A DNA stretch of 64,000 nt from Pseudomonadales bacterium (GTDB taxonomy: Bacteria > Pseudomonadota > Gammaproteobacteria > Pseudomonadales > Pseudohongiellaceae). The notes under the pieces were generated by a model. It worked only from the letters and a program-made list of their open reading frames with translations, did no database searches and was not told the DNA's origin. The position numbers were made by a program, and so were the translations under genes. The DNA lies in the NCBI GenBank assembly GCA_022819645.1, contig JAJEGU010000067.1:62001-126000 (forward strand), written 5' to 3'. The stretch's first letter is position 1. Each line of letters opens with the position of its first letter. Positions 39,679-58,083 of the stretch are shown here, one piece after another.

Positions 39679-39807
39679 GACCTGTTTCAAAATGTTGCAT
39701 TCGCCGGTACGGAAAAACCCGGCGAATCGTGGACTTGGGGCAGGGAAGAATTTAGTATCCGGCGGGTGTTCCGTCGGGAATATAGACCATCATCCGAGGA
39801 GAATGAC

Positions 39808-41160
39808 ATGAAACTGGCGCAAGCTTTGATCCTGGTCGGTGGCGCGGTGGCTTTTGGCGCCCTGGCCCAAGCCGCGAATGGGCAACACGACATCACCTAC
39901 AACGGTGACGTGGCAAGAATCATCAACGAGAACTGTGTGGTCTGCCACCGGGAAGGCGGCATCGGCCCGATGCAGTTCGAGAACTTCGACCAGGTCCGTC
40001 CCTGGGCGCCCCTGATTTCCCTCAAGGTCGCCACCCGGGAAATGCCTCCCTATGCCTATGATCACGGCATCGGCATCCAGGAACTGGAAGGCGACTGGCG
40101 GCTGGCCCAGGACGAGATCGACGCCATCGTCGCCTGGGTTGAGCAGGGCGCGCCCCTGGGCGATCCCGATGTGGTTCCCCCCATGCCGGAACTGCCCGAT
40201 CCCAGCGCCTGGAACTTCGAGCCCGAACTCGGCGCTCCGGACCTGATCATTCCTTCGATTCCCATGGACATTCCCGCCAACGGCAATGACCTGTGGAGCA
40301 AGCACTACGTCCCCAGCACCCTGACCATGGACCGTTGCATCAAGGCGGTGCAGGTCAAGCCCCGGGGCGACGCCACGGCGGTTGTGCATCACGCCAACTC
40401 CTATATCGAGGCGGAAAACGAAGACGGCGAATTCGAGCGCTTCGGCCAGCTCACTGAATACGCCATGGGCAAATGGGGCGAATTGATGCCGGAAGGCGTC
40501 TGCCGCACCATTCCCGCCGGCTCCCGCGTTTCCTGGGACATCCACATGTTCCCCGGTGGCGTTGGCGCCACTGCCGAAGGTCAGATGATCAAGGACAATG
40601 TGGTGGAAATCGGCCTCTGGTTCCACGATGAGGACTACGCGGAAACCGAAAGCCCCTACAAGCAGGATCTGCGCCTCTATCCCATGCGCTCCGGCTATGA
40701 GGGCGGCCATCTGATCGTGCCCCCGAATGGCTACACCATGACCCAGGGCTTCCACTCCTTCGACCATCCGGTTCGCATCGACAGCTTCCAGCCGCACGGC
40801 CATCTGCGCATGAACGCCGCTTCGCTGGAAATCTTCTATCCCGAAACCGGCCGCACCGAGCAGATCAGCCAGATCTCCAACTGGAGCGCCACCTGGCACC
40901 ACAGCCACATCTACGAAGCCGATGTGGCGCCGCTGCTGCCGACCGGCGCGGTGCTCGTGATCAAGCAGTGGTACGACAATACCGCCAACAACCCCAATAA
41001 TCCCGACCCGGACCAGTGGGTGTACGGCGGCAGCCGCACCGGTGACGAAATGTCCCATGCCTGGATCGCCATCACCCATCTGGACGATGAAGGTTACGAG
41101 AAGATCGTCGCCGGGCGCAGGGCCAAGGAGCAGCGCAGCCTGGCGGCATCCGACGACTGA
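39808..41160 (+). CDS. Cytochrome c/copper type II monooxygenase-like protein, paralogue 1
   Basis: 450 residues from ATG 39808 (GAGGAGA upstream), with a signal peptide to about residue 23. N-terminal haem c motif CVVCHREGGIGPM (C43, C46, H47) followed by a typical single-haem fold. The second part is a copper type II ascorbate-dependent monooxygenase-like domain: VVHHANSY (H194, H195), SWDIHMFPGG (H246) and PHGHLRMN (H330, H332), matching HH, H and HxH copper ligands. A third histidine cluster WHHSHIY lies near 364-367. These enzymes hydroxylate carbon next to nitrogen or similar groups in the periplasm; the substrate is unknown. Very similar to the next gene. A terminator follows. Confidence 0.8.
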   Translation: MKLAQALILVGGAVAFGALAQAANGQHDITYNGDVARIINENCVVCHREGGIGPMQFENFDQVRPWAPLISLKVATREMPPYAYDHGIGIQELEGDWRLAQDEIDAIVAWVEQGAPLGDPDVVPPMPELPDPSAWNFEPELGAPDLIIPSIPMDIPANGNDLWSKHYVPSTLTMDRCIKAVQVKPRGDATAVVHHANSYIEAENEDGEFERFGQLTEYAMGKWGELMPEGVCRTIPAGSRVSWDIHMFPGGVGATAEGQMIKDNVVEIGLWFHDEDYAETESPYKQDLRLYPMRSGYEGGHLIVPPNGYTMTQGFHSFDHPVRIDSFQPHGHLRMNAASLEIFYPETGRTEQISQISNWSATWHHSHIYEADVAPLLPTGAVLVIKQWYDNTANNPNNPDPDQWVYGGSRTGDEMSHAWIAITHLDDEGYEKIVAGRRAKEQRSLAASDD

Positions 41161-41185
41161 GTCTCGCGCAAGCGGTTCAAACCCG

Positions 41186-41217
41186 AAAGGGGCGGCCCAT
41201 GGGCCGCCCCTTTTTCG
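41186..41217 (+). terminator. Rho-independent terminator between paralogues
   Basis: Stem AAAGGGGCGGCCC (41186-41198) paired with GGGCCGCCCCTTT (41201-41213), two-base loop, then more T. It lies 25 bp after the first paralogue, so the second has its own promoter or attenuation. Confidence 0.85.
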
Positions 41218-41335
41218 TCTGGTTGCAATTGCAATTTGGCACATTTGGGCCGTTTCCGCTTCCCCGAAAACTGGAGTAGACTTGGGCGGGTGGATATTGC
41301 AGCCCAATAAATCAGGCAACAGAGAGGACAGGCAG

Positions 41336-42670
41336 ATGAAGCTGATCCGGACGCTTTCCCTGGCGGCGCTTGGTCTTCCCGCTGTGGCACTGGCCCAGCA
41401 GGACCTAAGCTACAACGAGCACATCGCCACCATCATCAACGAAAACTGCGTGGTCTGCCACCGCGAAGGCGGCATTGGCCCCATGCAGCTCGAAAACTAC
41501 GACCAGGTCCGCCCCTGGGCGCCGCTCATCTCACTGCGGGTGGCGAGTCGCGAAATGCCTCCCTATTCCTACGACCACGGCATTGGCATCCAGGACCTGA
41601 AAGGAGACTGGCGGCTGAGCCAGGAAGACATCGACGCCGTAGTTGCCTGGGTGGAACAGGGTTCTCCCCAGGGCGACCCGGACATTGTCCCGCCGGCGCC
41701 TGATCTGCCCGACCCGGACGCCTGGAACTTCGAGCCCGAGTTCGGCGCGCCGGACCTGATAATCCCTTCGGTGGCCATGGACATTCCCGCCAGCGGCAAC
41801 GATCTGTGGAGCAAGCATTTCGTGGAAAGCGGCCTCGCCGCCGACCGCTGCATCAAGGCGGTGCAGGTAAAGCCCAGGGGCGACGCCAAGGCGGTGGTGC
41901 ACCACGCCAACTCCGACATCTGGGCGCCGGATGAAAACGGCGAGTACGAGGAACTCGGGCAATTGACCGAATACGCCATGGGCAAGTGGGGCGAATTGAT
42001 GCCGGAAGGCGTCTGCCGCACGCTCCCCGAGGCGGCGCGCATTCGCTGGGACATTCACATGTATCCGGGCGGTGTCGGCGCTACCGCTGAAGGCCAGGTG
42101 ATTCGGGACAATGTGGTGGAAATCGGCCTCTGGTTCCACGATGAGGGCTTCATGGAGCGCGAGCAGCCCTACAGGCAGGACCTGCGCCCCTACCTCATGC
42201 GTTCCGGCTACGAAAACGGCGAACTGATCCTGCCGCCCCATGGCTACACCATGACCCAGGGCTTCCACTCCTTCGACCACCCGGTGCGCATCGACAGCTT
42301 CCAGCCACACGGCCACCTGCGCATGAATGCCGCTTCCTTCGAGATTTTCTATCCCGAAACCGGCCGCACCGAGCAGATCAGCCAGATCTCCAACTGGAGC
42401 GCCACCTGGCACCACAGCCACATCTACGAACCCGACGTGGCCCCGCTGGTTCCCACCGGCGCGGTGCTGGTCATCAAGCAGTGGTACGACAACACCGCCA
42501 ACAACCCCAATAATCCCGACCCGGACCAGTGGGTTTACGACGGCAGTCGCACCGGCGATGAAATGTCGCACGCCTGGATTGCCATCACCCACCTCGACGA
42601 GGAAGGCTACCAGAAACTCCTCGCCGAACGCGAAGCCAGCCAGCAACGCTCACTGGCAGCTTCCGACTAG
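41336..42670 (+). CDS. Cytochrome c/copper type II monooxygenase-like protein, paralogue 2
   Basis: 444 residues from ATG 41336 (AGAGGA upstream). Signal peptide to about residue 20. Same order as paralogue 1: haem c motif CVVCHREGGIGPM, HH, then DIHM, HxH (PHGHLRMN) and WHHSHIY. Long stretches are identical between the two proteins, particularly the C-terminal half, so they arose by tandem duplication; most change is in the first 30 residues and the mid-loop near FMEREQPY. The stop codon overlaps the first bases of a REP-like repeat. A terminator at 42730-42759 follows. Substrate unknown. Confidence 0.8.
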   Translation: MKLIRTLSLAALGLPAVALAQQDLSYNEHIATIINENCVVCHREGGIGPMQLENYDQVRPWAPLISLRVASREMPPYSYDHGIGIQDLKGDWRLSQEDIDAVVAWVEQGSPQGDPDIVPPAPDLPDPDAWNFEPEFGAPDLIIPSVAMDIPASGNDLWSKHFVESGLAADRCIKAVQVKPRGDAKAVVHHANSDIWAPDENGEYEELGQLTEYAMGKWGELMPEGVCRTLPEAARIRWDIHMYPGGVGATAEGQVIRDNVVEIGLWFHDEGFMEREQPYRQDLRPYLMRSGYENGELILPPHGYTMTQGFHSFDHPVRIDSFQPHGHLRMNAASFEIFYPETGRTEQISQISNWSATWHHSHIYEPDVAPLVPTGAVLVIKQWYDNTANNPNNPDPDQWVYDGSRTGDEMSHAWIAITHLDEEGYQKLLAEREASQQRSLAASD

Positions 42671-42719
42671 GAGTCTGCGCCGCAGGAATTCGCGAAAGCG
42701 AAAATTCGCTATCGCCGCG
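42669..42719 (+). repeat. REP-like repeat, copy 4
   Basis: AGGAGTCTGCGCC, AGGAATTC, GCGAAAGCGAAAATTCGC and ATCGCCGCG in order. The A-G of its first bases are the last two bases of the TAG stop codon of the gene before it, so insertion was exactly at the gene end. Confidence 0.8.
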
Positions 42720-43405: not shown

Positions 43406-43702
43406 CTACTTGCGTTCGGCGTAGCGGGTCCCGGGCTTCGGCCCTGGGCGTTGCGGCTCCGGGGCTGCCGCGTCGATCAGGCCGACGATCCATTCGCAAT
43501 CTCGCACGGTATGGTCAAGTCCGGCTTCCATCGCTGGCGTGACGCGCAGTGTCTTATGGATGCGGCAGAAATTGTAATGCACGAAATACAGGCTCAACAT
43601 GGCGACGTGCTTTTCGATCTTCTTCGAGAATGCGTTTGTCAGGCGAGTGAATCGACGGTTCCCCATGCGCATCGAGAGATTGTGACGCTCGAAAAGCAGC
43701 AA
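43406..43702 (-). pseudogene. IS1-like transposase, 3' remnant
   Basis: 98 residues of an open frame whose core, RMGNRRFTRLTNAFSKKIEK and YNFCRIHKTLRVTPAMEAGL, is the C-terminal region found in IS1-family-like DDE transposases. The catalytic Asp residues of the N-terminal half are missing, so the 5' part is lost and the gene is not functional. It lies between the membrane protein gene and purE. No inverted terminal repeats were visible. Confidence 0.72.
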
Positions 43703-44265: not shown

Positions 44266-44855
44266 AGCCTCCCCGGGAGACCGACTGTGCAGCCGTGAAT
44301 TCCTGCGGCGCAGGCTCCGAGGAGGCGGCAAGCCGCCTGCAACGGGGTGAATTGATCGCCTGTCCCACCGAAGCCGTCTGGGGAATCAGCTGTGACCCTT
44401 TCAACGAGGCGGCGGTATTGCGCGTGCTGCGCCTGAAGCGGCGCCCCGTGGAAAAAGGTCTCCTGCTGCTCGCTGCGGGCATCGACCAGATCGAGGATTT
44501 GCTGGCGCCGCTTGCCCCGGAACAGATCGCAGAATTGCGCGAATCCTGGCCCGGGCCTGTCACCTGGCTGATTCCGGACCCGGACAAGCGTTACCCCGGC
44601 TGGGTGAAAGGAAAACACCCATCGGTCGCCATCCGGGTCAGCGATCATCCCGTGGCGGCGGCAATCAGCCGGAGCTTTGGCAAGCCCATGGTTTCCACTT
44701 CGGCCAATCTTGCCGGCGAACCGGAGATCCGGTCGAGGGAAGACCTGCACCGGCAGTTTGGAGATCGCATCCACTGTATCGTCAAAGGCGAACTCGGAGG
44801 GCGGGACGCGCCTTCTGAAATCCGCGACCTGTCCAGTGGCCGCAGAATCCGCTAG
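44262..44855 (+). CDS. tsaC: Threonylcarbamoyl-AMP synthase
   Basis: 197 residues from GTG 44262, whose GTG overlaps the stop of purE. TsaC/YrdC makes L-threonylcarbamoyl-AMP for the tRNA t6A37 modification. Motifs: GELIACPTEAVWGISCDP, LKRRPVEKGLLLLA, SWPGPVTWLIP and VSTSANLAGEPE. The first 19 residues (through SCGAGSE) are encoded partly by a REP-like repeat (44288-44318), so the N-terminus differs from relatives that start just before xLQRGELIACP. A second GTG (44295, inside the repeat) could be the true start. A hairpin overlaps the stop codon. Confidence 0.93.
   Translation: MKPPRETDCAAVNSCGAGSEEAASRLQRGELIACPTEAVWGISCDPFNEAAVLRVLRLKRRPVEKGLLLLAAGIDQIEDLLAPLAPEQIAELRESWPGPVTWLIPDPDKRYPGWVKGKHPSVAIRVSDHPVAAAISRSFGKPMVSTSANLAGEPEIRSREDLHRQFGDRIHCIVKGELGGRDAPSEIRDLSSGRRIR
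44288..44318 (-). repeat. REP-like repeat, copy 5, inside the tsaC coding sequence
   Basis: On the minus strand GGAGCCTGCGCC, GCAGGAATTC and ACGGCTGCA follow in order, one mismatch from copy 1 at 20269-20299. It encodes tsaC residues about 10-19 (A-A-V-N-S-C-G-A-G-S) in frame without a stop. Confidence 0.75.
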
Positions 44856-45069: not shown

Positions 45070-45082
45070 AGAGAATACCTAA

Positions 45083-45135
45083 GAGCCTGCGCCGTAGGAA
45101 TTCGCGAAAGCGAAAATTCGCTATCGCCGCGCCCC
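45083..45135 (+). repeat. REP-like repeat, copy 6
   Basis: GAGCCTGCGCC, AGGAATTC, GCGAAAGCGAAAATTCGC and ATCGCCGCGCCCC. On the minus strand it contains the stop codon (TAG, 45121-45123) and last four codons (G-A-R-R) of the MauG-like gene. Confidence 0.8.
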
Positions 45136-47284: not shown

Positions 47285-47382
47285 GGGAGTTTCCTCGCTG
47301 TCTATTCTCATGAAAACCACAACGTTGGGATGCCGATGCTATTGATCTGGAGCAACCAAGGTAATCTTTATGGTTTGATTTG

Positions 47383-48954
47383 TCACTTTCCTGCCATTCT
47401 TCTGAGCCATTCAGACTCGTCAACTGCCGGACGAGACAGTGTTTCGGCGAATTTCTGTGCAATCCGCTGAGCATATTCGGACTTGAGTTCGCCTTGCCAC
47501 GCGTAGCGGTCGCCGCTAGTGTCGGTAAATTCGAAATCACCATTTGATCCCCGCTTAATCCCAACAACCTCTCTCCTGTCTACTGATGGACTGAAATTCA
47601 GTTGGACCAATGAGGCGGATTCAAGCTTCACGCTCATCCTGTGAAATTCATTGCCGAGCTTTACGATAAGTTGAATCCCCCATTTTTCTTCGGGCTCAAC
47701 CAGCGGCAGAAAAATGAACGAAGTATCCTCATTCAGCCTCACGCTGTCGCATCGGGGTCTCATGCAAATTAGATGCCTTTTGTTGCCATTTTGCCGCATT
47801 GTGACAATTGACCCCAGCCAAAGCGTGGGTGCAGGCGCGTTATAAAGAGTGCGGAAACTCATGATCCAAGCCAATCGCTCGTCTAGGCCAACGACATCGG
47901 GTTGCGCGAAGCCTGAAGTGAGAAATTCAAATGCCTTTTTCTTGAAGTTGTTCGAGAACGCCGTGCTTGCTTCCAAACCATCAGTTACCAGCTGTATCAC
48001 CTCTTCCAAGTTGAGTTGGTTCTTGCCGAACTTAAAGCCTTCCCTACCATCATTTCGTATCCAATGCTCCGCTGCTTGCTTGCCTGCGGGAGATATCGCA
48101 GCAACAGCCTCATCGGCGAGACCGCGAAGTTCCTCTGCAACATGGGCAACAATCTGACGCTCTGCCTCTTCGGGATTGGTGAGACAGGTCATATGAGAAA
48201 GATACGCCGGATCAAGTTCCGTTCTGAAACAGTCCAACACCTTGTGCGCACCTTCGCGCACTGCGGTCAAAGACGTAAGCGCGATGCCGGGAAGCAGCCC
48301 TTTGGTCATCGAGGCGAAGTCCTCAACCAGCCGCCCCGGAAGATCCTCTTCCGCGACGCTTCGATCCTTCAGCGAAGAAGCCAGATTCTTCATATCGGAC
48401 TTTGCGTATAGAACTACCCGCCCATGCCGATATCGAATTTCCATATTGGCCTCGTTTTCTTCCGGCTCAAGTTCCAGTCTCTCCAGTTCAGAGCGAATTT
48501 TCGCACCAATATCCGCCAATCCTGGTTCGCCGGTGTAAATCGCCACGAGCCTAAGCGAGTTCCGGTCCGCTTCTCCAGTCAGCAAGTTCCGCAGTAACTT
48601 AAGTGTGAAGTCTGGCTCATCTTGCAAGCGCCAATCGAGAATCACAATATCGGCCTGCCTCATCGTCTCTCTTACTTCATCTGTCGGACTGACAACACCG
48701 CAGATGATCCCGAGCCCGGAGAACGAACCGATGAGCGAACCGGCATCCAAAGTGTGGCTAGCCCCACGATAAGCCGGATTCTGCTCGTCTTGGCTCGATG
48801 GCCGAGCGTTTCGGCCGGGCTCCACTACCTCGGCCTTCGGTCCATTTTCACCATCCGAAGCCATATAGGCCTCGTCATCGACGACGACCGCAGTCTGGAG
48901 AAAACGCCGCGCCAATGCGCGGTTCCCAGTTGCAAACTCGTCTCCCGAACTCAT
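47383..48954 (-). CDS. Receiver-domain protein of restriction-linked two-component-like system
   Basis: 523 residues. The first about 150 show a receiver fold: acidic pair VVVDDE (26-27), likely phospho-acceptor VILDWRLQ (D107) and a Thr in LVAIYTGEP (T141). About 50 residues between the acidic pair and D107 form a longer insert than in ordinary CheY-like domains. The remaining 370 residues have no HTH or known output motif; they look helical, then strand-rich near the end. It starts nine bases after the GHKL ATPase gene and probably receives phosphate from it. Such receivers (Response_reg_2 type) occur next to MORC-like ATPases in restriction islands; exact output unknown. Confidence 0.7.
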   Translation of the reverse strand: MSSGDEFATGNRALARRFLQTAVVVDDEAYMASDGENGPKAEVVEPGRNARPSSQDEQNPAYRGASHTLDAGSLIGSFSGLGIICGVVSPTDEVRETMRQADIVILDWRLQDEPDFTLKLLRNLLTGEADRNSLRLVAIYTGEPGLADIGAKIRSELERLELEPEENEANMEIRYRHGRVVLYAKSDMKNLASSLKDRSVAEEDLPGRLVEDFASMTKGLLPGIALTSLTAVREGAHKVLDCFRTELDPAYLSHMTCLTNPEEAERQIVAHVAEELRGLADEAVAAISPAGKQAAEHWIRNDGREGFKFGKNQLNLEEVIQLVTDGLEASTAFSNNFKKKAFEFLTSGFAQPDVVGLDERLAWIMSFRTLYNAPAPTLWLGSIVTMRQNGNKRHLICMRPRCDSVRLNEDTSFIFLPLVEPEEKWGIQLIVKLGNEFHRMSVKLESASLVQLNFSPSVDRREVVGIKRGSNGDFEFTDTSGDRYAWQGELKSEYAQRIAQKFAETLSRPAVDESEWLRRMAGK

Positions 48955-48963
48955 TCTGTTCTC

Positions 48964-51921
48964 CTATGAATCCTTAACCGGCACAACGCCGAATACCGCA
49001 CCTCGGTCGCCATCGATCAGCTGCAAATCGAACCCGACCCGGCGTAGAGTTTCCCTTCCGATATGCAATCCCATTCCTCGTCCACCGGGTTTTCGGCTGA
49101 AGCCGAACTCGAAAATCGCCTCCCGGTCACGAATATCGACCCCTGGTCCGGTGTCCGAAACAAGCAGTGTGCCTCCTTTCTCATCCAGGGTAATGTTCCG
49201 CTTGCCCTTTTCTGGATTCTGTTGCGATAACCAGAATATGGCGTTGTCCACCAGGTTCACGAAGACGGGATAGAAATTTGAAGGAAAGCCCACGATTTTG
49301 GCACCGACAAAAGCCTTTGTCGCTTTCAATGTCACGTTATGCCGCGCCAGACGCGCTCGAAATAACTCTTCAAGGAAGTCTCGTATCTCGGAACCGCGAA
49401 TTTCTACAGCCTTTCTGTATAGTCGCCGTTGCAGCGGTGTGAACAGCGTCAGATAGCCGTCCAGATGATCGAAGCTCGTCCTGATACTATCGTACAACTC
49501 CCCCAGACCCTCGTTTACGTCAGCCCATGCCTTCAGTCTTCGCAGGCCCCTTCGTACGGTTCGTATCGTTCCTGAGAACTCATGGTTGATGATCTCGATC
49601 GCCATTCCCAATTGCGCCAACTGCGCATCGGCTTCGGCTTCCTCTTCCAGCAGAAGGTTGCGCTGCTCGATTGCCATTAGTTGTTCAGCTGTGGAACTCT
49701 CACCCGTCACGTCCACGGCCAGAAGCTGCTCCAAAACCGATTGCAACAACGTTGTCTGTTCATTCGCGACCTTTAGTACTCTGGTTTCAAGTTCATCTCT
49801 GGTTTCGACGAAGATCTCGTCGGGCATTTCCGCAAGATCGATTCGCTGAAACTCGCTAAGCACCTCACGTAGTTCCGACTCGACCGCTTTGATGGATCGT
49901 CCTGCCACCTCTCGCGCTTTCGAAGCGACCACGTCCGCTTCCGCTTTTACAGCCTGACCCGACTTGCCCGTGGTCTTTCGCGCTTCCTGGCCGAGGCCAT
50001 CGAGCGCGGCTTCCGTTCTTACTCGACGATCAAGCGACAACGCCGCTTTTTTGGCCTCTTCACCGACTAGATCATCAAGCATACTCCGCGCCGGCTTGAA
50101 CACATTCTCCTGAAGCGATGCAAACTCCGTGTTGTACACTCGCCAATCGCGAAGCGTAGCCTTGCTCAATCCGATTCGCGGGCGAGAAATGCGGTAACGA
50201 GCCTCAAGATTCCTGATGTCCGCATGCGCGTTACGTTCGAGATCGAGTATCGTGCGTCCCGCTTGTTCTCGATCCGCCATATCGCATGCCGACCGCAACT
50301 CCGAAGCCACACGCTCCGTTAACTTCAATGCTTCGTTTTGGGGTTCTTCGTTCTTGAGTTTGTCGAAGAAACTGTTCAGGCTGGCCTCGAATGTCCTCTT
50401 TCGCTCAACAACCTGTTTTTCCCGCCGCTTCCTTGCCTCGTCTTCTTTTGAAAGCTCAGACTTTCGCAGATCGAACGCTTCAGCGTGTACTCCTTCGGAG
50501 CGGAAAAAATCCGCGGCCATCTGAAGGAAAAAGTTCTGAAGTATGGACCGAAATTGCCGGTACGCCTTGTTCTCCTGGAATCCCTCTCGCCCCGCTTTTT
50601 CCAGCAGATTTCGATTTTTCTCGGCGTCGATCTCAACCGCTCCAAACATCTTGCGATGAGAGAAGTAGTAGTAGTAAGCACTTTTCGTTCGCCTGAATTC
50701 AATGTCCAGCCAATCGTATTCGGTGTCGCCGTAGGGCAGCACTCGAATTCCGTTTCGGTAAATGTACAGTCCTCCGAGTTGTTCGGCCTTGTTTCCCAAT
50801 CTTGCGTGTTCTTCGTGTGGGATAGTCGAGTGCCTGCTTTCACCCTCGAAAGCGGCGAAGTCTATCGAGAAAGGACCGCAGAGCGTCCGTGCGCCGCGTC
50901 CGCCGCCCCAAGGAATTACGTGATCGTCAATCGTTTCTCCATAAATCGAGATTTCTCCTCGGAATTGGCCGAACTTGTCGAACGATCCCCATATCCGGTG
51001 ATCGGCATTGCTAAATTCATCTGGCGTGAAGAATTCATCTTCTTCAATCAGGTCGTCGGCCAATTCGTCTGTCTTGTGGTCGCGGAATGCGGTTTGGATC
51101 ACGGTTTGCGAACTCGGTGTCATGGTGTTACTGAATCCAAGCAGCGCCTTTTTCAAGGGCGTTGCCTTCTTCAAGGCGGCTGCTTTGCTTGCTGTTGAAT
51201 CGCCGTCAATATCGTCTGTCAACAGTGGTGACGCCGGCTTGATGATAAAGTGCGTTCCGCTACCGTTCCCGCCAAGCGACGGGTCCCGCAGATAGGAGTC
51301 GATGTGTTGCGGGTCTACGTCGAAAAGGGACAACTCGCCTGCAAGTTTCTCTACAAGTCGCCGCTCAACATCTTGCCCCAGGGATTCGGCTCCCTCACGA
51401 AACTCCCCTACCATCTCCACCACGTCCCGTGCCGATGGAAGCGCTCCTTTCGAAAACGATCGCAACGGGATATTGATTTCCTCCAGGTCAATCCCGGGCC
51501 ATTCGAAAATACTCCAATTCAAGAAAGCTACTGTAATGTCGGATGCTCCATCTTTGGTTTTCGCTCGCGTAATAACCAGGAGTTGCGGGCCGATAGTCGC
51601 AATCGCGAGCCTCCCGATACCTTTCTCTCCGAGCATTGGACGCGATGCCTTGTCAGGATCGCTTGGTGGTCGTCGTTGGGGGTCGAATTTGCTTTCGGTG
51701 CCGATCGTCAGCCATCGTGCCGCGAAGTCTTCCCGGCTCATCCCGATTCCGTCGTCCCTCAAGACGAAGAGACCGTCAGACCGGTAGAAATCTATCTCGA
51801 CGCGATCCGCATAGGCGTCATGCGCGTTCTTGAACAGTTCGCTTATGGCCGTAGGGATGCCGGCAATCTGCTGCCTCCCGAGCATGTCGAGCGTACGGGC
51901 GCGTGTCTTGAAGGTGGCCAT
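48964..51921 (-). CDS. Dual-GHKL ATPase: N-terminal MORC/Hsp90-like, C-terminal histidine-kinase-like
   Basis: 985 residues. N-terminal GHKL module: ISELFKNAHDAYADRVEI (N32), RDDGIGMSRED (56-61) and MLGEKGIGRLA (98-104), the Bergerat ATP site of Hsp90/MutL/MORC proteins. Then a long coiled middle (about 480-780). C-terminal module: an H-box-like INHEFSGTIRTV (H780), N-box FVNLVDNAIFWL (889-893), DTGPGVD (923-927) and GGRGMGL (946-952), as in histidine kinases. Its ATG overlaps the stop of the methyltransferase gene by one base (TGATG). GHKL ATPases of this kind next to restriction-modification genes were described as MutL/MORC relatives (Iyer, Abhiman and Aravind). Having both types in one chain is unusual. 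Confidence 0.78.
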   Translation of the reverse strand: MATFKTRARTLDMLGRQQIAGIPTAISELFKNAHDAYADRVEIDFYRSDGLFVLRDDGIGMSREDFAARWLTIGTESKFDPQRRPPSDPDKASRPMLGEKGIGRLAIATIGPQLLVITRAKTKDGASDITVAFLNWSIFEWPGIDLEEINIPLRSFSKGALPSARDVVEMVGEFREGAESLGQDVERRLVEKLAGELSLFDVDPQHIDSYLRDPSLGGNGSGTHFIIKPASPLLTDDIDGDSTASKAAALKKATPLKKALLGFSNTMTPSSQTVIQTAFRDHKTDELADDLIEEDEFFTPDEFSNADHRIWGSFDKFGQFRGEISIYGETIDDHVIPWGGGRGARTLCGPFSIDFAAFEGESRHSTIPHEEHARLGNKAEQLGGLYIYRNGIRVLPYGDTEYDWLDIEFRRTKSAYYYYFSHRKMFGAVEIDAEKNRNLLEKAGREGFQENKAYRQFRSILQNFFLQMAADFFRSEGVHAEAFDLRKSELSKEDEARKRREKQVVERKRTFEASLNSFFDKLKNEEPQNEALKLTERVASELRSACDMADREQAGRTILDLERNAHADIRNLEARYRISRPRIGLSKATLRDWRVYNTEFASLQENVFKPARSMLDDLVGEEAKKAALSLDRRVRTEAALDGLGQEARKTTGKSGQAVKAEADVVASKAREVAGRSIKAVESELREVLSEFQRIDLAEMPDEIFVETRDELETRVLKVANEQTTLLQSVLEQLLAVDVTGESSTAEQLMAIEQRNLLLEEEAEADAQLAQLGMAIEIINHEFSGTIRTVRRGLRRLKAWADVNEGLGELYDSIRTSFDHLDGYLTLFTPLQRRLYRKAVEIRGSEIRDFLEELFRARLARHNVTLKATKAFVGAKIVGFPSNFYPVFVNLVDNAIFWLSQQNPEKGKRNITLDEKGGTLLVSDTGPGVDIRDREAIFEFGFSRKPGGRGMGLHIGRETLRRVGFDLQLIDGDRGAVFGVVPVKDS

Positions 51922-53021
51922 CAGGTCAGTCTTCCCACTTCCTTTAAATGCTCGATGAATCGCTTGCCGACTTGCATCGCCAATCGAACCGGGACGGCAT
52001 TTCCAATCTGCTTGGCCATTGACGTCACGCCACCCTCGAATACGAAATCATCTGGGAATGTCTGCAGACAAGCCGCTTCGCGGACGCTAATGGCGCGGTC
52101 CTGCTCCGGGTGGCCGAAGCGTCCGTTCGAGTAGCTGACGCATCGCGTGGTCAGCCCCGAAGCGGGAGCGTCCCAGGACATCCGGCCGTAGACATCCGTA
52201 TATCCCGAAAAATTCTTGTGACATTCGAGCTTCAGGTGTTCCGGCCAATCCCTGTGACCACCGCCTTCCGGGGTCGCTCTGACGCGTTCCAGATTCAAGG
52301 CCGAAAGATTGGCCGCTACATGATTTAGCACTCGGCCATGCTCTTCTCCGGCACGAATAGGCGGCAGGTGAGATATGGAATCCCGGACTGTAACGTATTG
52401 TTTAGTAGGTGCGCCCAGCCCGTGCGTCTCGTCTGGTAGACGGATTGGCCCATGGCGGCTCGCAACCAAAACCAATCGTCGCCGAGTCTGCGGTATGCCG
52501 TACTTGGCCAACCGGGCAGACCGGTAATCCAACCACCGGTATCCAGCAGCGTAGAGGCGACACAGAAAGCTACCGAACGGTTGACTGTCGCTCTCCAGCT
52601 TTTGCAGACCAGGCACGTTTTCCACAAACACAAGGTCTGGTTCGCAAACCTCCACCAAGTGCGCGAAATAATCAAGCAACGGTACGCGATCATCCTCGTC
52701 GAACTCCGGTCGTTGTGTGTTCTGTTTGGTGAAGGGTTGACAAGGCGCACAGCCGGTAAACAACACGGGATTTGGCCGTTCGGACTGGGTCCGTCGCCGG
52801 ATGTCTTCGACATTCACGTCCTCAATATCCAACGACTCGAAGCGGGCATTGGGAAAGTTTGCTTGAAAACTAGCCTTGGCGTCTGCGTCGTGGTCCAGCG
52901 CGAACGAAATTTCCATGCCGGCGGCCCGAAAGCCACAGCTTGCGCCGCCGCATCCTGAGAAAAAATCGTATACTCGCACAGTCATTGGCCCGACACCGTT
53001 TCTGCCCGATAGATGCCGCAT
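51921..53021 (-). CDS. C5-cytosine DNA methyltransferase
   Basis: 366 residues from ATG 53021 (GGAA upstream); ATG 52985 is an alternative that starts nearer the first motif. Motif I: DFFSGCGGASCGF. Motif IV with catalytic Cys: PCQPFTKQ (C94). Motif VI: ENVPGLQ (134-138). Motifs VIII (QTRRRLVLVA) and X (IGNAVPVRLA) are also present, so it is complete. It transfers methyl groups from SAM to cytosine C5 and fixes the recognition sequence; the variable region (about residues 190-310) cannot be read for specificity. Stop overlaps the start of the GHKL ATPase gene. Follows the type I subunits by about 100 bp. Confidence 0.92.
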   Translation of the reverse strand: MRHLSGRNGVGPMTVRVYDFFSGCGGASCGFRAAGMEISFALDHDADAKASFQANFPNARFESLDIEDVNVEDIRRRTQSERPNPVLFTGCAPCQPFTKQNTQRPEFDEDDRVPLLDYFAHLVEVCEPDLVFVENVPGLQKLESDSQPFGSFLCRLYAAGYRWLDYRSARLAKYGIPQTRRRLVLVASRHGPIRLPDETHGLGAPTKQYVTVRDSISHLPPIRAGEEHGRVLNHVAANLSALNLERVRATPEGGGHRDWPEHLKLECHKNFSGYTDVYGRMSWDAPASGLTTRCVSYSNGRFGHPEQDRAISVREAACLQTFPDDFVFEGGVTSMAKQIGNAVPVRLAMQVGKRFIEHLKEVGRLT

Positions 53022-53124
53022 GACGTTCCGCAGTTAATCAGACGACTCAAAAGCGATTGGCCCCGGTCGCCAAAGCGAAACGGAATCATCAACCCTCTTC
53101 TCCGCTTAGTGTTCACGATGACTG

Positions 53125-54285
53125 TCATGAGTCTACCTTCAGTGATCGATTCATCAACGAAGAACTGAGCTCGAATACTCGACCGGTAGTGTCGATTGCA
53201 GTATCAGCAACGCGACGCATTCTGGTGATGATATTGCAGTATCGAATCTGCAGATCGATAGGTGGTATCGGAACTGGAAAGCCGCCGAGTTGCGTCTTGT
53301 TGATGCTTGCAATTCCGGTAGTTCGTTTGGCAACTGAGAGGAAATACGATTTGCCGTAACTACTGCCAGCAACATCACGAAGATAGTCTGTCAATACAAT
53401 CTCTCGATAGGGCCTAACCCGAAAGATGTGGTTTTGGTGGGCGCAGTATGGAAGTTCACCATTCCACACGGCGGCTCGCCCCAACTTGTCTGAATCACCG
53501 CCCTCGGTCATTACGAGATCACCCGGTTCTAGTGCATATCTGTTCTCTTCGTTTCTCCGAATTCGAATAGTCTTGACTTCATCGAGATTCAGAAAGCCTT
53601 CCTGAACATTCGCAACACGAAGATACGGCACTTCGAGAGCCTGACCGGGGTCAATTTTTCGACCCTTTGTAGCACCTGACGCAATAGCGGCTACATCCCT
53701 GAGTGGCATGTACGGATAGCTCGATTTTATTCGTTCGTTATCCCCGAACATCTTTACAAAAAGTGCTGGGATGAATTCCCGAATCCGCCCCTGAGCTTGC
53801 CTCCGCAGCTGCTCGATTTTCGCCGCCCGGTTCAGGATGCCGACAATCCGCCGCTGTTCGTCGAGCGGTGGTAGGGGTATCTGAAGCGATTTCAGGTTCT
53901 TTTGGCTAATGGCTGCGAATGTACTGCCTTGTCCCATCGCAACAAGTTTGGTCTCTCTATGCCTGAGGCTCCAAAGCACGAAATCCCGAAGCGCTGCAGT
54001 TCCATCAGGCCGAATTGCCGCCAATCCACGCCCGATGCAGCATCGAGAGTCTGCGACATTTGTAGGACCGACGGGAGCACGAACGGATATCAGAATATCA
54101 CCGCACTCAGCGATTTTCTTGGGTGCTATGCACCATTTCCGGGCTATTGGATGAACCTCACCGAAGTCAGTCTTTCCTTGAAAAAACGGAAGCCCAACAC
54201 CGCTATCGTTATAGGTGTGGCTGGGCGGTGACTGGCCTGCGATCACAGTCGTAACGTCGCTAAGTGGCACAAGCGGAAAGTTCAT
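53125..54285 (-). CDS. hsdS: Type I restriction specificity subunit
   Basis: 386 residues with two target-recognition domains (about 1-125 and 190-345), each followed by a conserved helix. After the first: LQIPLPPLDEQRRIVGILN; after the second: FPVPIPPIDLQIRYCNIITR. This is the HsdS plan: each TRD reads one half of a split DNA site. The ATG overlaps the stop of hsdM by four bases. It lies in lower-GC DNA than the genes outside the island. The second helix is shorter than the first, which sets the site spacer. Recognition sequence cannot be predicted by eye. Confidence 0.92.
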   Translation of the reverse strand: MNFPLVPLSDVTTVIAGQSPPSHTYNDSGVGLPFFQGKTDFGEVHPIARKWCIAPKKIAECGDILISVRAPVGPTNVADSRCCIGRGLAAIRPDGTAALRDFVLWSLRHRETKLVAMGQGSTFAAISQKNLKSLQIPLPPLDEQRRIVGILNRAAKIEQLRRQAQGRIREFIPALFVKMFGDNERIKSSYPYMPLRDVAAIASGATKGRKIDPGQALEVPYLRVANVQEGFLNLDEVKTIRIRRNEENRYALEPGDLVMTEGGDSDKLGRAAVWNGELPYCAHQNHIFRVRPYREIVLTDYLRDVAGSSYGKSYFLSVAKRTTGIASINKTQLGGFPVPIPPIDLQIRYCNIITRMRRVADTAIDTTGRVFELSSSLMNRSLKVDS

Positions 54286-55916
54286 TTAACCATTGCCTCA
54301 TCACGCACAGCCTTTGCCAACTCGTCGATCTCCTCCAGGATTTCCTTCTCAATGCCCCGCAACTCCTTCAAAATCTCCAGCGGATCTCGGTGTTCCACCT
54401 TCTCCCGACTCCGCGGCCGGTGACGGTTGGCGCTGAGGTTGAAATCGGCTTCGCGGATTGCGTTGGCATCTGCGAACCACCAATTCTCAGTCCACTCCGA
54501 ATCTGTATCGTGTCGGTACCAGTCGTCGAACCTAGCATCCTTGTCCCGAAACGCTTCGATCAATCCGGACAGGTCATCTTCTTCTATCGGCTGATCATGG
54601 TTCGCGTCGAGCTTGAAGCCGTCGTTGTCGGCGTGCAGGAACATCACTTGTTGCGTCTGGCCTCCCTTGCGGAACAAGAGCACCGAAGTCTTCACCCCGG
54701 AATAGGGGTTGAACACGCCGCCCGGCAGCGACAGCACTGCCTCGACGGTGTTGTTGTCGATCAGCCTTCGCCGCAGTTCCCTGTGGGCGCCGGTGGAGCC
54801 GAACAGCACGCCCTCGGGAACCACCACCCCGCAACGGCCACCCTCCTTCAACTGGTTCAACATGTATTGCAGAAATAGTAGTTCGGTTTGCGCCGTTCGC
54901 CCAATTTTCAATTCCTCGACGATGCGATCCTTGTCCAGCCGCCCGGAAAACGGCGGATTGGCGAGGATGACGTCGAATCCGTTCGCTGGCAGCCCAAGTT
55001 CGCTCTTGGCGGCGCGGTCGAGCGAGCGGGTCAGCGCGTCGCGACGCAGGATGCGCACCTGGTCCAACCCGCGCAACGTCAGGTTCATCGTAGCGAGGCG
55101 CACCATCTGCGGGTCCACGTCAGCACCGTAGAAGGTATCCTCGCGCAACTGCTTCACCGCGTCGCGGCTAAGCGTGTCGCCGAGTCCGCGCAGAACCGAT
55201 TTGCCGTCGGCTTCTATCTCTTCGATGCCCTCAGGAGACGAGTTGGCGAACCGGATATGGTCCCATGCACCGACCAGGAAGCCGGCGGTGCCGGCCGCCG
55301 GGTCGTAGATCGTTTCGCCAATGCGGGGATCAACCAGTTGAACCAGAGCGCGGATGACATGACGCGGAGTGCGGAACTGTCCCAGTTCGCCAGCCTGCCG
55401 AATCTGGCGCAGCACATGCTCGAAGAGGTCGCCCTTGGTGTCCGCGTCCACTCGATCGAGATGGAGGTCGTTCAATTGGCTGACCACCTGCGTCAACACG
55501 GTCGGTTCGTCGATCACCAGTCTGGCGCCGTCCATGAAATCCGTTACGCCGTTTTGCGCGAGTTCGGCGTGAAATGGAAAAACTTCTTCGCGCACCCAGT
55601 TGACGAGCCGTTCGCCGTTGAGCGCGTCCGCCCAAGATGACCAGCGCAGCAGTGAGCGCGGCACCGCCCCCTTTCCGGGCTCGCGGGCGTTGCGCGGGTC
55701 GCGCAGCTCCCATTCGTCGTCAAAAACGCTTTGATATGCTTCCGCGCCCGGCCTTTGCGAAGAGCGCACCCTGGCCGCATCCGCCGCCTCGTACATGTAG
55801 AAGTAGATCAGGAAGCTGAGTTGTTCCGCATTCTGGGCCGGGTTCGGGTAGCCGCCGCCGAACAGATAGTCGCGGATGCGGTCGATGCCGCGCCGGAGCT
55901 CGGGCGTCATGGGCAT
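54282..55916 (-). CDS. hsdM: Type I restriction-modification N6-adenine methyltransferase subunit
   Basis: 544 residues from ATG 55916, with GGAGGAAGGA at good spacing; a longer frame to 56015 would overlap hsdR. Starts with a helical HsdM N-terminal domain (LRRGIDRIRDYLFGGGYPNP). Motif I: DPAAGTAGFL (about 205-214), FGTEHLxR-like boxes follow, and the catalytic motif NPPFSGRLDK (320-323). It methylates adenine in the sequence chosen by HsdS and forms the M2S core. The C-terminus has helix pairs (EILKELRGIEKEILEEIDEL). It lies 61 bp after hsdR. Confidence 0.92.
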   Translation of the reverse strand: MPMTPELRRGIDRIRDYLFGGGYPNPAQNAEQLSFLIYFYMYEAADAARVRSSQRPGAEAYQSVFDDEWELRDPRNAREPGKGAVPRSLLRWSSWADALNGERLVNWVREEVFPFHAELAQNGVTDFMDGARLVIDEPTVLTQVVSQLNDLHLDRVDADTKGDLFEHVLRQIRQAGELGQFRTPRHVIRALVQLVDPRIGETIYDPAAGTAGFLVGAWDHIRFANSSPEGIEEIEADGKSVLRGLGDTLSRDAVKQLREDTFYGADVDPQMVRLATMNLTLRGLDQVRILRRDALTRSLDRAAKSELGLPANGFDVILANPPFSGRLDKDRIVEELKIGRTAQTELLFLQYMLNQLKEGGRCGVVVPEGVLFGSTGAHRELRRRLIDNNTVEAVLSLPGGVFNPYSGVKTSVLLFRKGGQTQQVMFLHADNDGFKLDANHDQPIEEDDLSGLIEAFRDKDARFDDWYRHDTDSEWTENWWFADANAIREADFNLSANRHRPRSREKVEHRDPLEILKELRGIEKEILEEIDELAKAVRDEAMVK

Positions 55917-55977
55917 ATCGTTGTCCTTCCTCCATGCTGAATTGTCCAGGTGCGGTGATGTCGCACCCGTTCGTCGC

Positions 55978-58083
55978 TCACGACCGGTCGAATACCGCGG
56001 CGTTGAAACCGGCAATCAGCCGGTCGAGGTTTTCTTCGCCGCCGAACACACGCCGCGCCTGATTGTAACCTCCCAGCGCGGCGAAGGGATGTTCGTCGAA
56101 ATCCCACCCGCCGAACGTTTCCATGTTCATCGCGTCCGCCCTGACGCGGCTGCCGATGAGGCTGGCCCAGCGAGACTGTTCCGCGTCGAAGTCCTCGTGT
56201 TCGCTGCGCCACTCCTCAATACGAACCCCGACTTCGGCGGCTCGGGATTCGTGTTCAGGCGTGCGGACGATTCTGCCGTTCTCGTCAAGAGTAAGCCAGT
56301 CCCGGCTTGCCGGGTCGATATGGTCGTTCACATCCAGTGTCAGCAGGGTGCCGGGATTGGTGGGAGAGTCGGAAGGTAGGCGTTCCTGAACGAAACCTCC
56401 GCTGATCTCCTCCTCGTCATCGCCGTGGAAGTCGCTCACGCCGACAAAGTCGAAGAGCGTGAACCCGTCCTTGCCGATATGCGGAGCCTTCCTTGTGCCC
56501 CTGCCCCGCATCTGCCGGTACAGGATGGCGCTGCGGGTGAACCGCGCCATGACCAGATTTACGACCTCCGGGCAGTCGAAACCGGTATCGAGCATATTCA
56601 CGCTCACCAGGATTTTCGGAAACTCCTCTTCCTTGAAGCGCTTGATGATGGCGCTGGCGTCGGGAGCGGGACCACCACCACCGGCATCGCTCACCACGAA
56701 ATCCGCATAGCGCGTGGCGGGGTGTGGTTTTTGGTCGGCGAAATGCTGGTCGAACATTTCGGCGAGCGTTTCCGCATGACGCTTGGTGACTGCGAACACG
56801 ATGGTCTTGCCCCATGCGGGCCATCGCTGAATGCCGTCGCGGCCCATAAACCCCTTTTCGTGGGCGTCGCGAAACTCCCGCACCATGGCGCGGTTGCGTT
56901 CGGGGATAGTGAACTTGCGCTCCAGGGCGTGCGGGTCCACCCTGAATTGATCTGAAGTCGTGAAGAGTTCCTCGAATTCGGCGCGGGTTTGCTCGTCCAT
57001 CGCGCTCCAGTCAAGTTCTCCCCTCCCGATCTCAAATCCATTTTCCTCGGCGGTCTTGACAGTCATCGCCCGGTATATGCGGTAAGGGACCAGATGACCT
57101 TCCCTGATTGCCTGACCCAGGGTGTAGCGATAAGTGGGTTCGGCCAGTTCGAAGAATCGCAGCGTATCGCGTACGAACAGTCCATCCTCGGGATCGGGCA
57201 TTTCATCGGAATCCACGACGCAGGGAGTGGCGGTCAGGCCAAGCTGGATGGCGTCAAAATGCCCGAGCGCGCCGCTCCATTTGCCATAAATCGAACGATG
57301 GCATTCATCGGTGATGACGAGATCAAAATAGCCGGGGGAGAGGTCACGGTATTCCGTGATCATGGTTTGCAGTGTTGCGATGGTGATGCGCTTGGCGCGG
57401 TCGAAGTTTCGGCTCGTCCGCAGTACCTGGCAGGGATAGTCGCGCAAATTGTCGATAAAGGCGTCTTCGGCCTGCCGGGCCAGGGCGATCCGGTCAACCA
57501 GAAAAAGCACACGGGTTACGATGCCTGCCTCGAACAGCCGTTTGATGAAGGCCGCCGCGGTACGGGTCTTGCCGGTTCCGGTGGCCATTTCGACGAGGAG
57601 TTTGCGGCGCCCGAGGGAAACTTCGGTTGAAAGCGCCTCAATGCAGTCGAGTTGGTAGTCACGGTTTACGATTTTCTGGTCGATGGCCACTGTCGAGAGG
57701 TTGCGACTGACCTGCCGTGCGGCGATCCGCCTCTCAAGATCGTCCTGGGCGAAAAAGCCCGCGATCTGCCGGGAGTGGGCGGCGGTTTCCCGGTCCAGAA
57801 AACGCACTTCCTCGCCATTCGAAAGAAATACGAACGGCACGTTGAGTTGTTCGGCGTAATGCCGTCCCTGATCCTGGGCCGTAATGGGATCGATACTTGA
57901 ACGTTTGGCTTCCAGCGCAGCCATGGGCCGGCCCTGCCGGTCGCAGAGGACATAGTCCGCCTGGGTGCCATCGGGCAACGATTGCTCGAACAGTACGCTT
58001 GAACCATCCGTGAGATTCCAGCCGGCGTCCTTGAGCAGGGCATCAATCTTGACGCGCGAGAGAGCCTCGGTCTTGTTGTTCAT
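55978..58083 (-). CDS. hsdR: Type I restriction subunit HsdR (compact)
   Basis: 701 residues, shorter than the 900-1100 common in HsdR; compact forms of the EcoEI-like class exist. N-terminal nuclease: D43 and EAK at 58-60 (MAALEAKRSSIDP) give the PD-(D/E)xK site. Helicase: ATGTGKT (167-173), ITDECHRSIYG (DECH 259-262), LGLTATP (motif III-like) and a C-terminal RecA half with SVNMLDTGFD and QMRGRGTRKA. This subunit translocates unmodified DNA and cuts it. First gene of the six-gene defence operon; the region upstream (58084-58090) leads into a truncated gene. Start site is not strongly fixed; no good ribosome sequence. Confidence 0.9.
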   Translation of the reverse strand: MNNKTEALSRVKIDALLKDAGWNLTDGSSVLFEQSLPDGTQADYVLCDRQGRPMAALEAKRSSIDPITAQDQGRHYAEQLNVPFVFLSNGEEVRFLDRETAAHSRQIAGFFAQDDLERRIAARQVSRNLSTVAIDQKIVNRDYQLDCIEALSTEVSLGRRKLLVEMATGTGKTRTAAAFIKRLFEAGIVTRVLFLVDRIALARQAEDAFIDNLRDYPCQVLRTSRNFDRAKRITIATLQTMITEYRDLSPGYFDLVITDECHRSIYGKWSGALGHFDAIQLGLTATPCVVDSDEMPDPEDGLFVRDTLRFFELAEPTYRYTLGQAIREGHLVPYRIYRAMTVKTAEENGFEIGRGELDWSAMDEQTRAEFEELFTTSDQFRVDPHALERKFTIPERNRAMVREFRDAHEKGFMGRDGIQRWPAWGKTIVFAVTKRHAETLAEMFDQHFADQKPHPATRYADFVVSDAGGGGPAPDASAIIKRFKEEEFPKILVSVNMLDTGFDCPEVVNLVMARFTRSAILYRQMRGRGTRKAPHIGKDGFTLFDFVGVSDFHGDDEEEISGGFVQERLPSDSPTNPGTLLTLDVNDHIDPASRDWLTLDENGRIVRTPEHESRAAEVGVRIEEWRSEHEDFDAEQSRWASLIGSRVRADAMNMETFGGWDFDEHPFAALGGYNQARRVFGGEENLDRLIAGFNAAVFDRS

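Follow-up and report, generated by a model that had tools for sequence, protein, structure and literature searches.

Bellieny-Rabelo et al. (2021; PMC8011034), in defining the HEF_HK (PF19191) and Response_reg_2 (PF19192) families, reported 91.6% linkage of the kinase and receiver genes in 644 regions, with C5 cytosine methylase genes frequently upstream. According to that account, Vsr genes occurred in 20 genera, restriction-modification (R-M) domains were enriched, type II most and type I too, and 174 of 222 proteins had the layout HATPase_c_3, HEF_HK, HATPase_c (group 1). The authors speculated that the pair is a two-component system controlling R-M, and described induction of the founding genes of a plant pathogen in potato tubers. 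Here we analyze a 64,000-nucleotide stretch of a Pseudomonadales genome (contig JAJEGU010000067.1, positions 62,001 to 126,000; hereafter, the window) that contains a cassette of this kind. It has the three genes and domain layout described in PMC8011034, where R-M, Vsr and type I genes in the vicinity had also been noted; it differs from that description in following immediately after a complete hsdRMS operon, with all genes on the same strand.

Several other described systems bear on this locus. Two of them are Detocs, a two-component defence of three genes, and the anticodon nucleases encoded at type I loci. That R-M loci encode MORC and paraMORC ATPases was described by Iyer et al. (2008; PMC2292703). 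The window kinase resembles these proteins in its N-terminal GHKL domain, in its R-M, C5 and Vsr context and in its sporadic spread, but where they are described with a fused nuclease or TIR domain, it has a histidine-kinase half and pairs with a receiver. The GHKL restriction enzymes BbrUII and HgiDII (NF050001) likewise have a related N-terminal ATPase beside a DNA methylase; the window kinase falls far under the cut-off of that family and no nuclease domain was found in it. VcSduA, formerly named paraMORC3, is a defence protein of the GHKL-nuclease type (PMC12137116). In Vibrio cholerae, TgvAB is a self-standing two-gene defence set within a type I R-M operon (PMC11411939, which cites embedded genes reported by Payne and colleagues); the arrangement is similar, but TgvAB are GmrSD-like type IV enzymes whereas the cassette studied here is methylase-kinase-receiver. 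In a literature search on the domain names we noticed no experimental follow-up of HEF_HK or Response_reg_2, and searches on Vsr, C5 methylase and kinase in phage defence, and on two-component phage defence, returned nothing on the cassette.

In the window, six open frames on the minus strand between 47383 and 58083 follow the order hsdR-hsdM-hsdS-C5 methyltransferase-kinase-receiver (Table 1). Pfam, PADLOC and NCBIfam concur on their identities, bearing out the genes and order proposed in an initial annotation made from the sequence alone. The kinase combines HEF_HK with HATPase_c_3 and HATPase_c, the adjacent Response_reg_2 protein has the phosphoacceptor aspartate, and a C5 methylase gene adjoins. 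Since PMC8011034 described these genes, their linkage and their layout, the triad is of a known kind. The observation made in the initial annotation is thus confirmed, the locus belongs to a published kind, and the interpretation is partly supported. The best explanation of the whole, to which we assign a probability of roughly 60%, is that two defence modules share one island: hsdR-hsdM-hsdS, and a C5-MTase/HEF_HK/Response_reg_2 cassette that would act as a self-contained modification and GHKL defence, with phosphotransfer to a private output, a mechanism that we infer. The analysis itself showed that the structure is modular, that gain and loss were separate, that the motifs are intact and that the output domain is private. 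New relative to PMC8011034 are a slot exchange within the genus, the embedding of the cassette in multiple systems, including DISARM, and a private, fast-evolving output domain.

To describe the cassette across related loci, we surveyed the best 80 by identity of at least 474 confirmed kinase relatives obtained in a genome contig scan; a viral contig scan yielded nine further relatives. Genes at these loci were called as greedy open frames, and taxonomy follows the titles of the sequence records, which name Proteobacteria, Bacteroidota, Cyanobacteria, Chloroflexi, Acidobacteria, Gemmatimonadetes and Methanosarcina (archaea), among others. The receiver gene directly followed the kinase gene in 79 of the 80 loci. 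A C5 methylase was encoded upstream of the kinase, on the same strand and within 1.7 kb, in 72 loci and anywhere in the fetched DNA in 76. By contrast, type I genes were found in at least 8 of the 80 (L029, L031, L032, L037, L041, L042, L047 and L077) and in at least 2 of the 41 loci flanked on each side by 5 kb or more; these counts are lower bounds, from profiles built on few seeds and used at E up to 1e-4. Because kinase, receiver and C5 methylase are near-constant companions and type I genes are not, we interpret the locus as two modules rather than as an obligate six-part machine.

Vsr-type endonucleases were more frequent: by profile, they were found in 46 of the 80 loci, within ∼3 kb of the kinase in 42 and on the same strand in 31 of those. 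The gene takes three different positions relative to the cassette, and Vsr was accordingly rejected as an obligatory fourth part. The sole Vsr gene found in the source genome (3.1 Mb, 85 contigs, 97.7% complete) is unlinked to the cassette; it lies on another contig, C1, by a second type I-like locus. Overall, these surveys divide the claims of the initial annotation. Its notion that type I, C5 methylase, kinase and receiver form one unusual combined system is not upheld, given the type I counts, the description of C5-kinase-receiver as a unit in PMC8011034 and a congener, G427, whose hsdRMS genes stand beside a different cassette. The annotation had also held that ATPase and receiver, if found mostly without R-M genes, are neighbours by chance. 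They do occur mostly without type I genes, yet the C5 and Vsr frequencies, together with the type I similarity at L029 and L031 described below, indicate that their link with R-M is non-random.

Elsewhere, the triad keeps varied company. Three loci, L036, L039 and L040, are DISARM-like, with drmMI on one side of the triad and drmA-drmB on the other; a type III methylase gene is directly upstream of it in L033, L099 has an McrBC gene, and L032 has a PDC-M23B-like helicase gene. These neighbours indicate that the triad attaches to several DNA-restriction systems. SIR2 and AAA proteins are also encoded among its neighbours; in the Pfam tallies, the neighbours covered were 55 of 66 proteins upstream, 50 of 59 downstream and three Vsr. 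At three loci, as parallel examples, type I genes and the triad stay or travel together. In L031, titled Gammaproteobacteria, C5-kinase-receiver is followed by an hsdR whose product is 79% identical to that of the window over the available 161 residues (kinase, 77%). In L029, titled Rhodothermales, the order is hsdM end-hsdS-C5-kinase-receiver, with HsdM 74% identical over 156 residues and the kinase 78%. L037 has hsdM-hsdS-Vsr-C5-kinase-receiver and, two genes on, an hsdR-like gene. Because the HsdM and HsdR sequences of L029 and L031 match those of the window about as well as the kinases do, the pairing of type I and cassette is not random.

Within the genus, the site itself is variable. A full-length kinase was found in 2 of 84 same-genus genomes, the source genome and G418, and a receiver search of 97 relatives yielded three with a receiver, adding G415, where a contig end truncates the kinase. 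In the source genome, the site between the HupE and DUF1428 genes holds hsdRMS and the C5-kinase-receiver cassette. It is empty in all four of the other, more distant congeners compared (G495, G510, G419 and G454; loci L158, L159, L168 and L169), where HupE and DUF1428 are 653 to 1278 bp apart, a gap in which small genes were not looked for. In G415, one contig carries HupE-hsdR-hsdM-hsdS (partial) and another carries kinase end-receiver-DUF1428; C5 was not seen. A search for the same gene order, as the initial annotation had proposed, found the complete order on one contig in the window only. A conserved six-part unit was therefore rejected, with partial support in G415, L029 and L031.

A different arrangement occurs in G427, whose HupE is 98% identical to that of the window. 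Here one contig carries HupE-hsdR-hsdM and a second carries hsdM-hsdS-[859 aa]-[468 aa]-DUF1428, the two contig ends sharing 141 identical bases. The 859-residue protein is a GHKL-Mrr fusion, its Mrr_cat score of 21.3 being just above the cut-off of 21, and the 468-residue protein is a DNA methylase. Neither the window kinase nor the receiver was detectable in G427, and the GHKL-Mrr protein was not found in the source genome, G415, G418 or G430. Nucleotide similarity between the window and G427 ends at 47288 and returns at 54292, except for a 73% stretch within hsdS, from which we conclude that hsdS and the cassette were exchanged together. In G430, hsdR-hsdM is kept at the site, the DNA past DUF1428 matches G427 and not the window for 1.1 kb, and the assembly yielded no window kinase, receiver or GHKL-Mrr protein. 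A conserved frame of 107 to 119 residues adjoins DUF1428 in G427 (L166, 4955-5278) and G430 (L167, 4073-4432); the L166 copy matched no Pfam family. The swap suggests that a GHKL-nuclease with a methylase may be equivalent to a GHKL-kinase with a receiver and a methylase, although a swap at one site falls short of proof of shared function.

These data also bear on the possibility that the six genes constitute one integrated system, in which kinase and receiver sense infection and control the type I enzyme, HsdR or HsdM/S being the real output. The operon-like spacing, the co-divergence of HsdR and HsdM with the kinase in L029 and L031, the replacement of hsdS and cassette as a single block, and the L037 cassette lying between hsdM-hsdS and an hsdR-like gene are consistent with this idea. 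It is nevertheless unlikely: few cassette loci have detected type I genes, the hsdRMS operon persists beside another cassette in G427, and G430 has hsdR-hsdM at a site with G427-like DNA past DUF1428 and no kinase or receiver found in its assembly. Moreover, type I enzymes are self-sufficient.

The initial annotation described overlaps of 1 to 4 bases or small gaps. By coordinates, this holds for hsdM/hsdS (4-base overlap), C5/kinase (1-base overlap) and kinase-receiver (9-base gap), but two junctions are looser, with 61 bases from hsdR to the likely hsdM ATG and 103 between hsdS and the C5 gene, or 139 counted from the alternative C5 start. Judged from this spacing, a single transcript may span the six genes. 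A consensus scan located no promoter-like site within the hsdS-C5 gap, in a region where promoter- and terminator-like sites were no more frequent than in shuffled sequence. The locus falls in two layers of G+C content: at third codon positions (GC3), hsdR and hsdM have 0.72-0.76, close to the 0.75-0.80 of the flanking genes, and hsdS and the three-gene cassette have 0.50-0.61. The low-G+C block thus begins with hsdS, as does the block exchanged in G427.

The 103-139 bp gap and differing GC3 would suit a second alternative, namely that the site merely collects defence genes as island neighbours, each module with its own promoter. The varied company of the cassette elsewhere and its sporadic presence, in 3 of 97 relatives and, for PF19191, in 10 of 398 genomes scattered over the phylum, point the same way. 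We nonetheless consider this account improbable, as the genes share one strand in tight order and similar type I genes accompany similar cassettes in metagenome-assembled genomes titled Rhodothermales and Gammaproteobacteria.

We also inspected the residues on which signalling would depend. In the kinase, Pfam places HATPase_c_3 at residues 24-133, followed by a long middle region, HEF_HK at 770-836 and HATPase_c at 884-976. Across 85 kinases from other loci, both GHKL ATP sites keep their motif sets; for N32/D35 and K442/R445, this is partly by construction, as these residues sit in the scan patterns. In the HEF motif, H780 is present in 85 of the 85, E in 84 and F in 80. D107 of the receiver is aspartate in all 74 aligned receivers, an alignment of the window receiver and 73 of 84 usable others; the other 11 were omitted for being short or near-identical, or by choice, and the receivers of L064 and L086, which failed the start-motif rule, lie outside it. 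The proposed phosphoacceptor position and signalling pair of the initial annotation are thus supported and, with both ATPase sites, H780 and D107 conserved, a working H780-D107 phosphorelay is expected. The kinase N-terminus matched the BbrUII/HgiDII model at residues 9-138 (1.2e-20; 73.6 bits, cut-off 550). Pfam detected no nuclease family in the kinase at E up to 0.1. MADS equivalogs scored below cut-off (MAD2, 140 of 720 bits; MAD5, 32 of 400 bits), and none of the six proteins matched DrmA or DrmB of DISARM up to E 0.01 among the matches listed. No model named Detocs appeared among the PADLOC matches listed either.

The receiver protein continues into an output domain of about 320 residues (∼200-523), which carries R233, D248, H254, C397-x4-C402-D403 and R406; C397, C402, R233 and D248 are invariant in the 74 aligned receivers. 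No further Pfam family, DNA-binding or other known output, is common to these proteins, PHROGs has no family for the receiver protein, and PDB profile searches with the entire protein and with the output domain alone gave no convincing relative. Across 398 genomes, all nine matches to an output-domain profile were receiver proteins, including a divergent member and one that a contig end truncates ahead of the receiver. This indicates that the domain is private to these proteins. The ratio of nonsynonymous to synonymous substitution rates (dN/dS) in two congener pairs was 0.25-0.30 for the receiver, three to four times that of the kinase, versus 0.07-0.11 for kinase and methylase; for L029 and L031 the values were 0.16-0.18 and 0.07-0.08, respectively. 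Receiver patches of high dN, at residues 271-370 (G415) and 431-485 (G418), were also high in dS and therefore resemble replaced segments; they are not proof of positive selection. The receiver is therefore the faster-changing part of the cassette, in part through replaced segments.

These features are consistent with the following mechanism. The C5 methylase would mark self DNA, and the MORC/MutL-like N-terminal GHKL domain of the kinase would act as a sensor clamp, powered by ATP, on DNA that is foreign or carries the wrong modification. Clamp closure would lead the C-terminal kinase half to phosphorylate H780, and the phosphate would move to D107. Phosphorylated D107 would then switch the output domain, which may be the effector itself or license a nuclease. 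The cassette could thereby use a phosphorelay to achieve in trans what the GHKL-Mrr fusion of G427 would achieve in cis, and its position behind hsdS would place two layers of self/non-self checking on a shared island. In its most specific form, this proposal is phosphorelay-gated restriction, in which a MORC clamp-kinase reports non-self DNA, the output domain with its C-x4-C-D, R233, D248 and H254 is a new effector, and the cassette is an in-trans counterpart of GHKL-nuclease enzymes, interchangeable behind the same type I operon; we put this form forward as tentative.

Several points weigh against the two-module explanation and its mechanism. To call the output domain an effector is a guess. 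The nuclease step would lack a fixed partner, since Vsr is near the kinase in about half of the loci and is not beside the cassette of the window. Finally, the identities at L029 and L031 suggest long joint travel of type I genes and cassette rather than independence. The remaining alternative, a plain two-component regulator of methylase or R-M gene expression with no defence effector, draws on the resemblance of the domains to two-component systems and on the speculation and potato-tuber induction in PMC8011034, but is very improbable given the lack of a DNA-binding or known output family in the 74 receivers, an N-terminal GHKL domain closest to GHKL restriction enzymes, and the elevated receiver dN/dS in the congener pairs.

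Textbooks present two-component phosphorelays as regulators of genes. Should the proposed relay of the cassette gate DNA restriction, histidine-kinase signalling would be tied directly to self/non-self recognition, and the reading of DNA methylation state by MORC-type ATPases would gain a bacterial counterpart. The natural exchange between GHKL-kinase and GHKL-nuclease cassettes behind one type I operon makes their equivalence testable with closely related pieces. The output domain, in turn, provides a first concrete target in a family left without function in the account of PMC8011034.

Table 1. Coordinates of the features discussed (window positions unless a locus is named).
Feature	Coordinates	Strand	Basis
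hsdR, type I restriction subunit, 701 aa, EcoAI/EcoEI-like	55978..58083	-	Pfam ResIII, HSDR_N, EcoEI_R_C; PADLOC REase_I
hsdM, type I methyltransferase subunit	54282..55916	-	Pfam N6_Mtase 9e-56; PADLOC MTase_I 3e-133; NPPF motif
hsdS, type I specificity subunit, 386 aa	53125..54285	-	Methylase_S (two stretches); Specificity_I 1.4e-100
C5 cytosine methyltransferase, 366 aa, possibly from ATG 52985	51921..53021	-	PF00145 6e-48; dcm TIGR00675 above cut-off
paraMORC-like histidine kinase, 985 aa	48964..51921	-	PF13589, PF19191, PF02518, all above Pfam cut-offs
Predicted phosphoacceptor H780 codon, CAT (HEF motif)	49582..49584	-	codon checked
Response_reg_2 receiver protein, 523 aa	47383..48954	-	PF19192, receiver domain 18-187
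Predicted phosphoacceptor D107 codon, GAT	48634..48636	-	codon checked
Block hsdS + C5 + kinase + receiver, replaced in G427 by hsdS' + GHKL-Mrr + methyltransferase + 107-aa frame	47289..54291	.	
GHKL(HATPase_c_3)-Mrr fusion (859 aa) and N6/N4-type DNA methylase (468 aa)	L166 5484-9315 (G427:C87)		

By domains and motifs, hsdR, hsdM and hsdS appear to make up a complete EcoAI/EcoEI-like type I system; all three genes are present with their motifs, and the genes themselves are ordinary. HsdR has D43...E58-A-K60, ATGTGKT at 167 and DECH at 259. The hsdM open frame extends to a TTG at 56015, which is probably not the start; the likely start is the ATG at 55916. In the C5 methyltransferase, the motifs PCQ and ENV are at 93 and 134, respectively. 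The second type I-like locus of the source genome (contig C1; L154, 5807-11285) encodes, consecutively, Vsr, a 1033-residue HsdR-like protein and HsdS.

Some features lie beyond the six genes. Two adjacent genes of about 1.4 kb at 39766-42670 resemble a tandem duplication, with a 300-nt repeat that is 79% identical at a spacing of 1513. A frame of 98 residues on the minus strand (43406-43702) resembles a transposase end, by eye only. A 53-nt intergenic repeat occurs at 42667-42719 and 45079-45131, the copies being 94% identical; an inverted copy of 28-29 nt is found at 44294-44322, and the repeat was matched several times in congener DNA.

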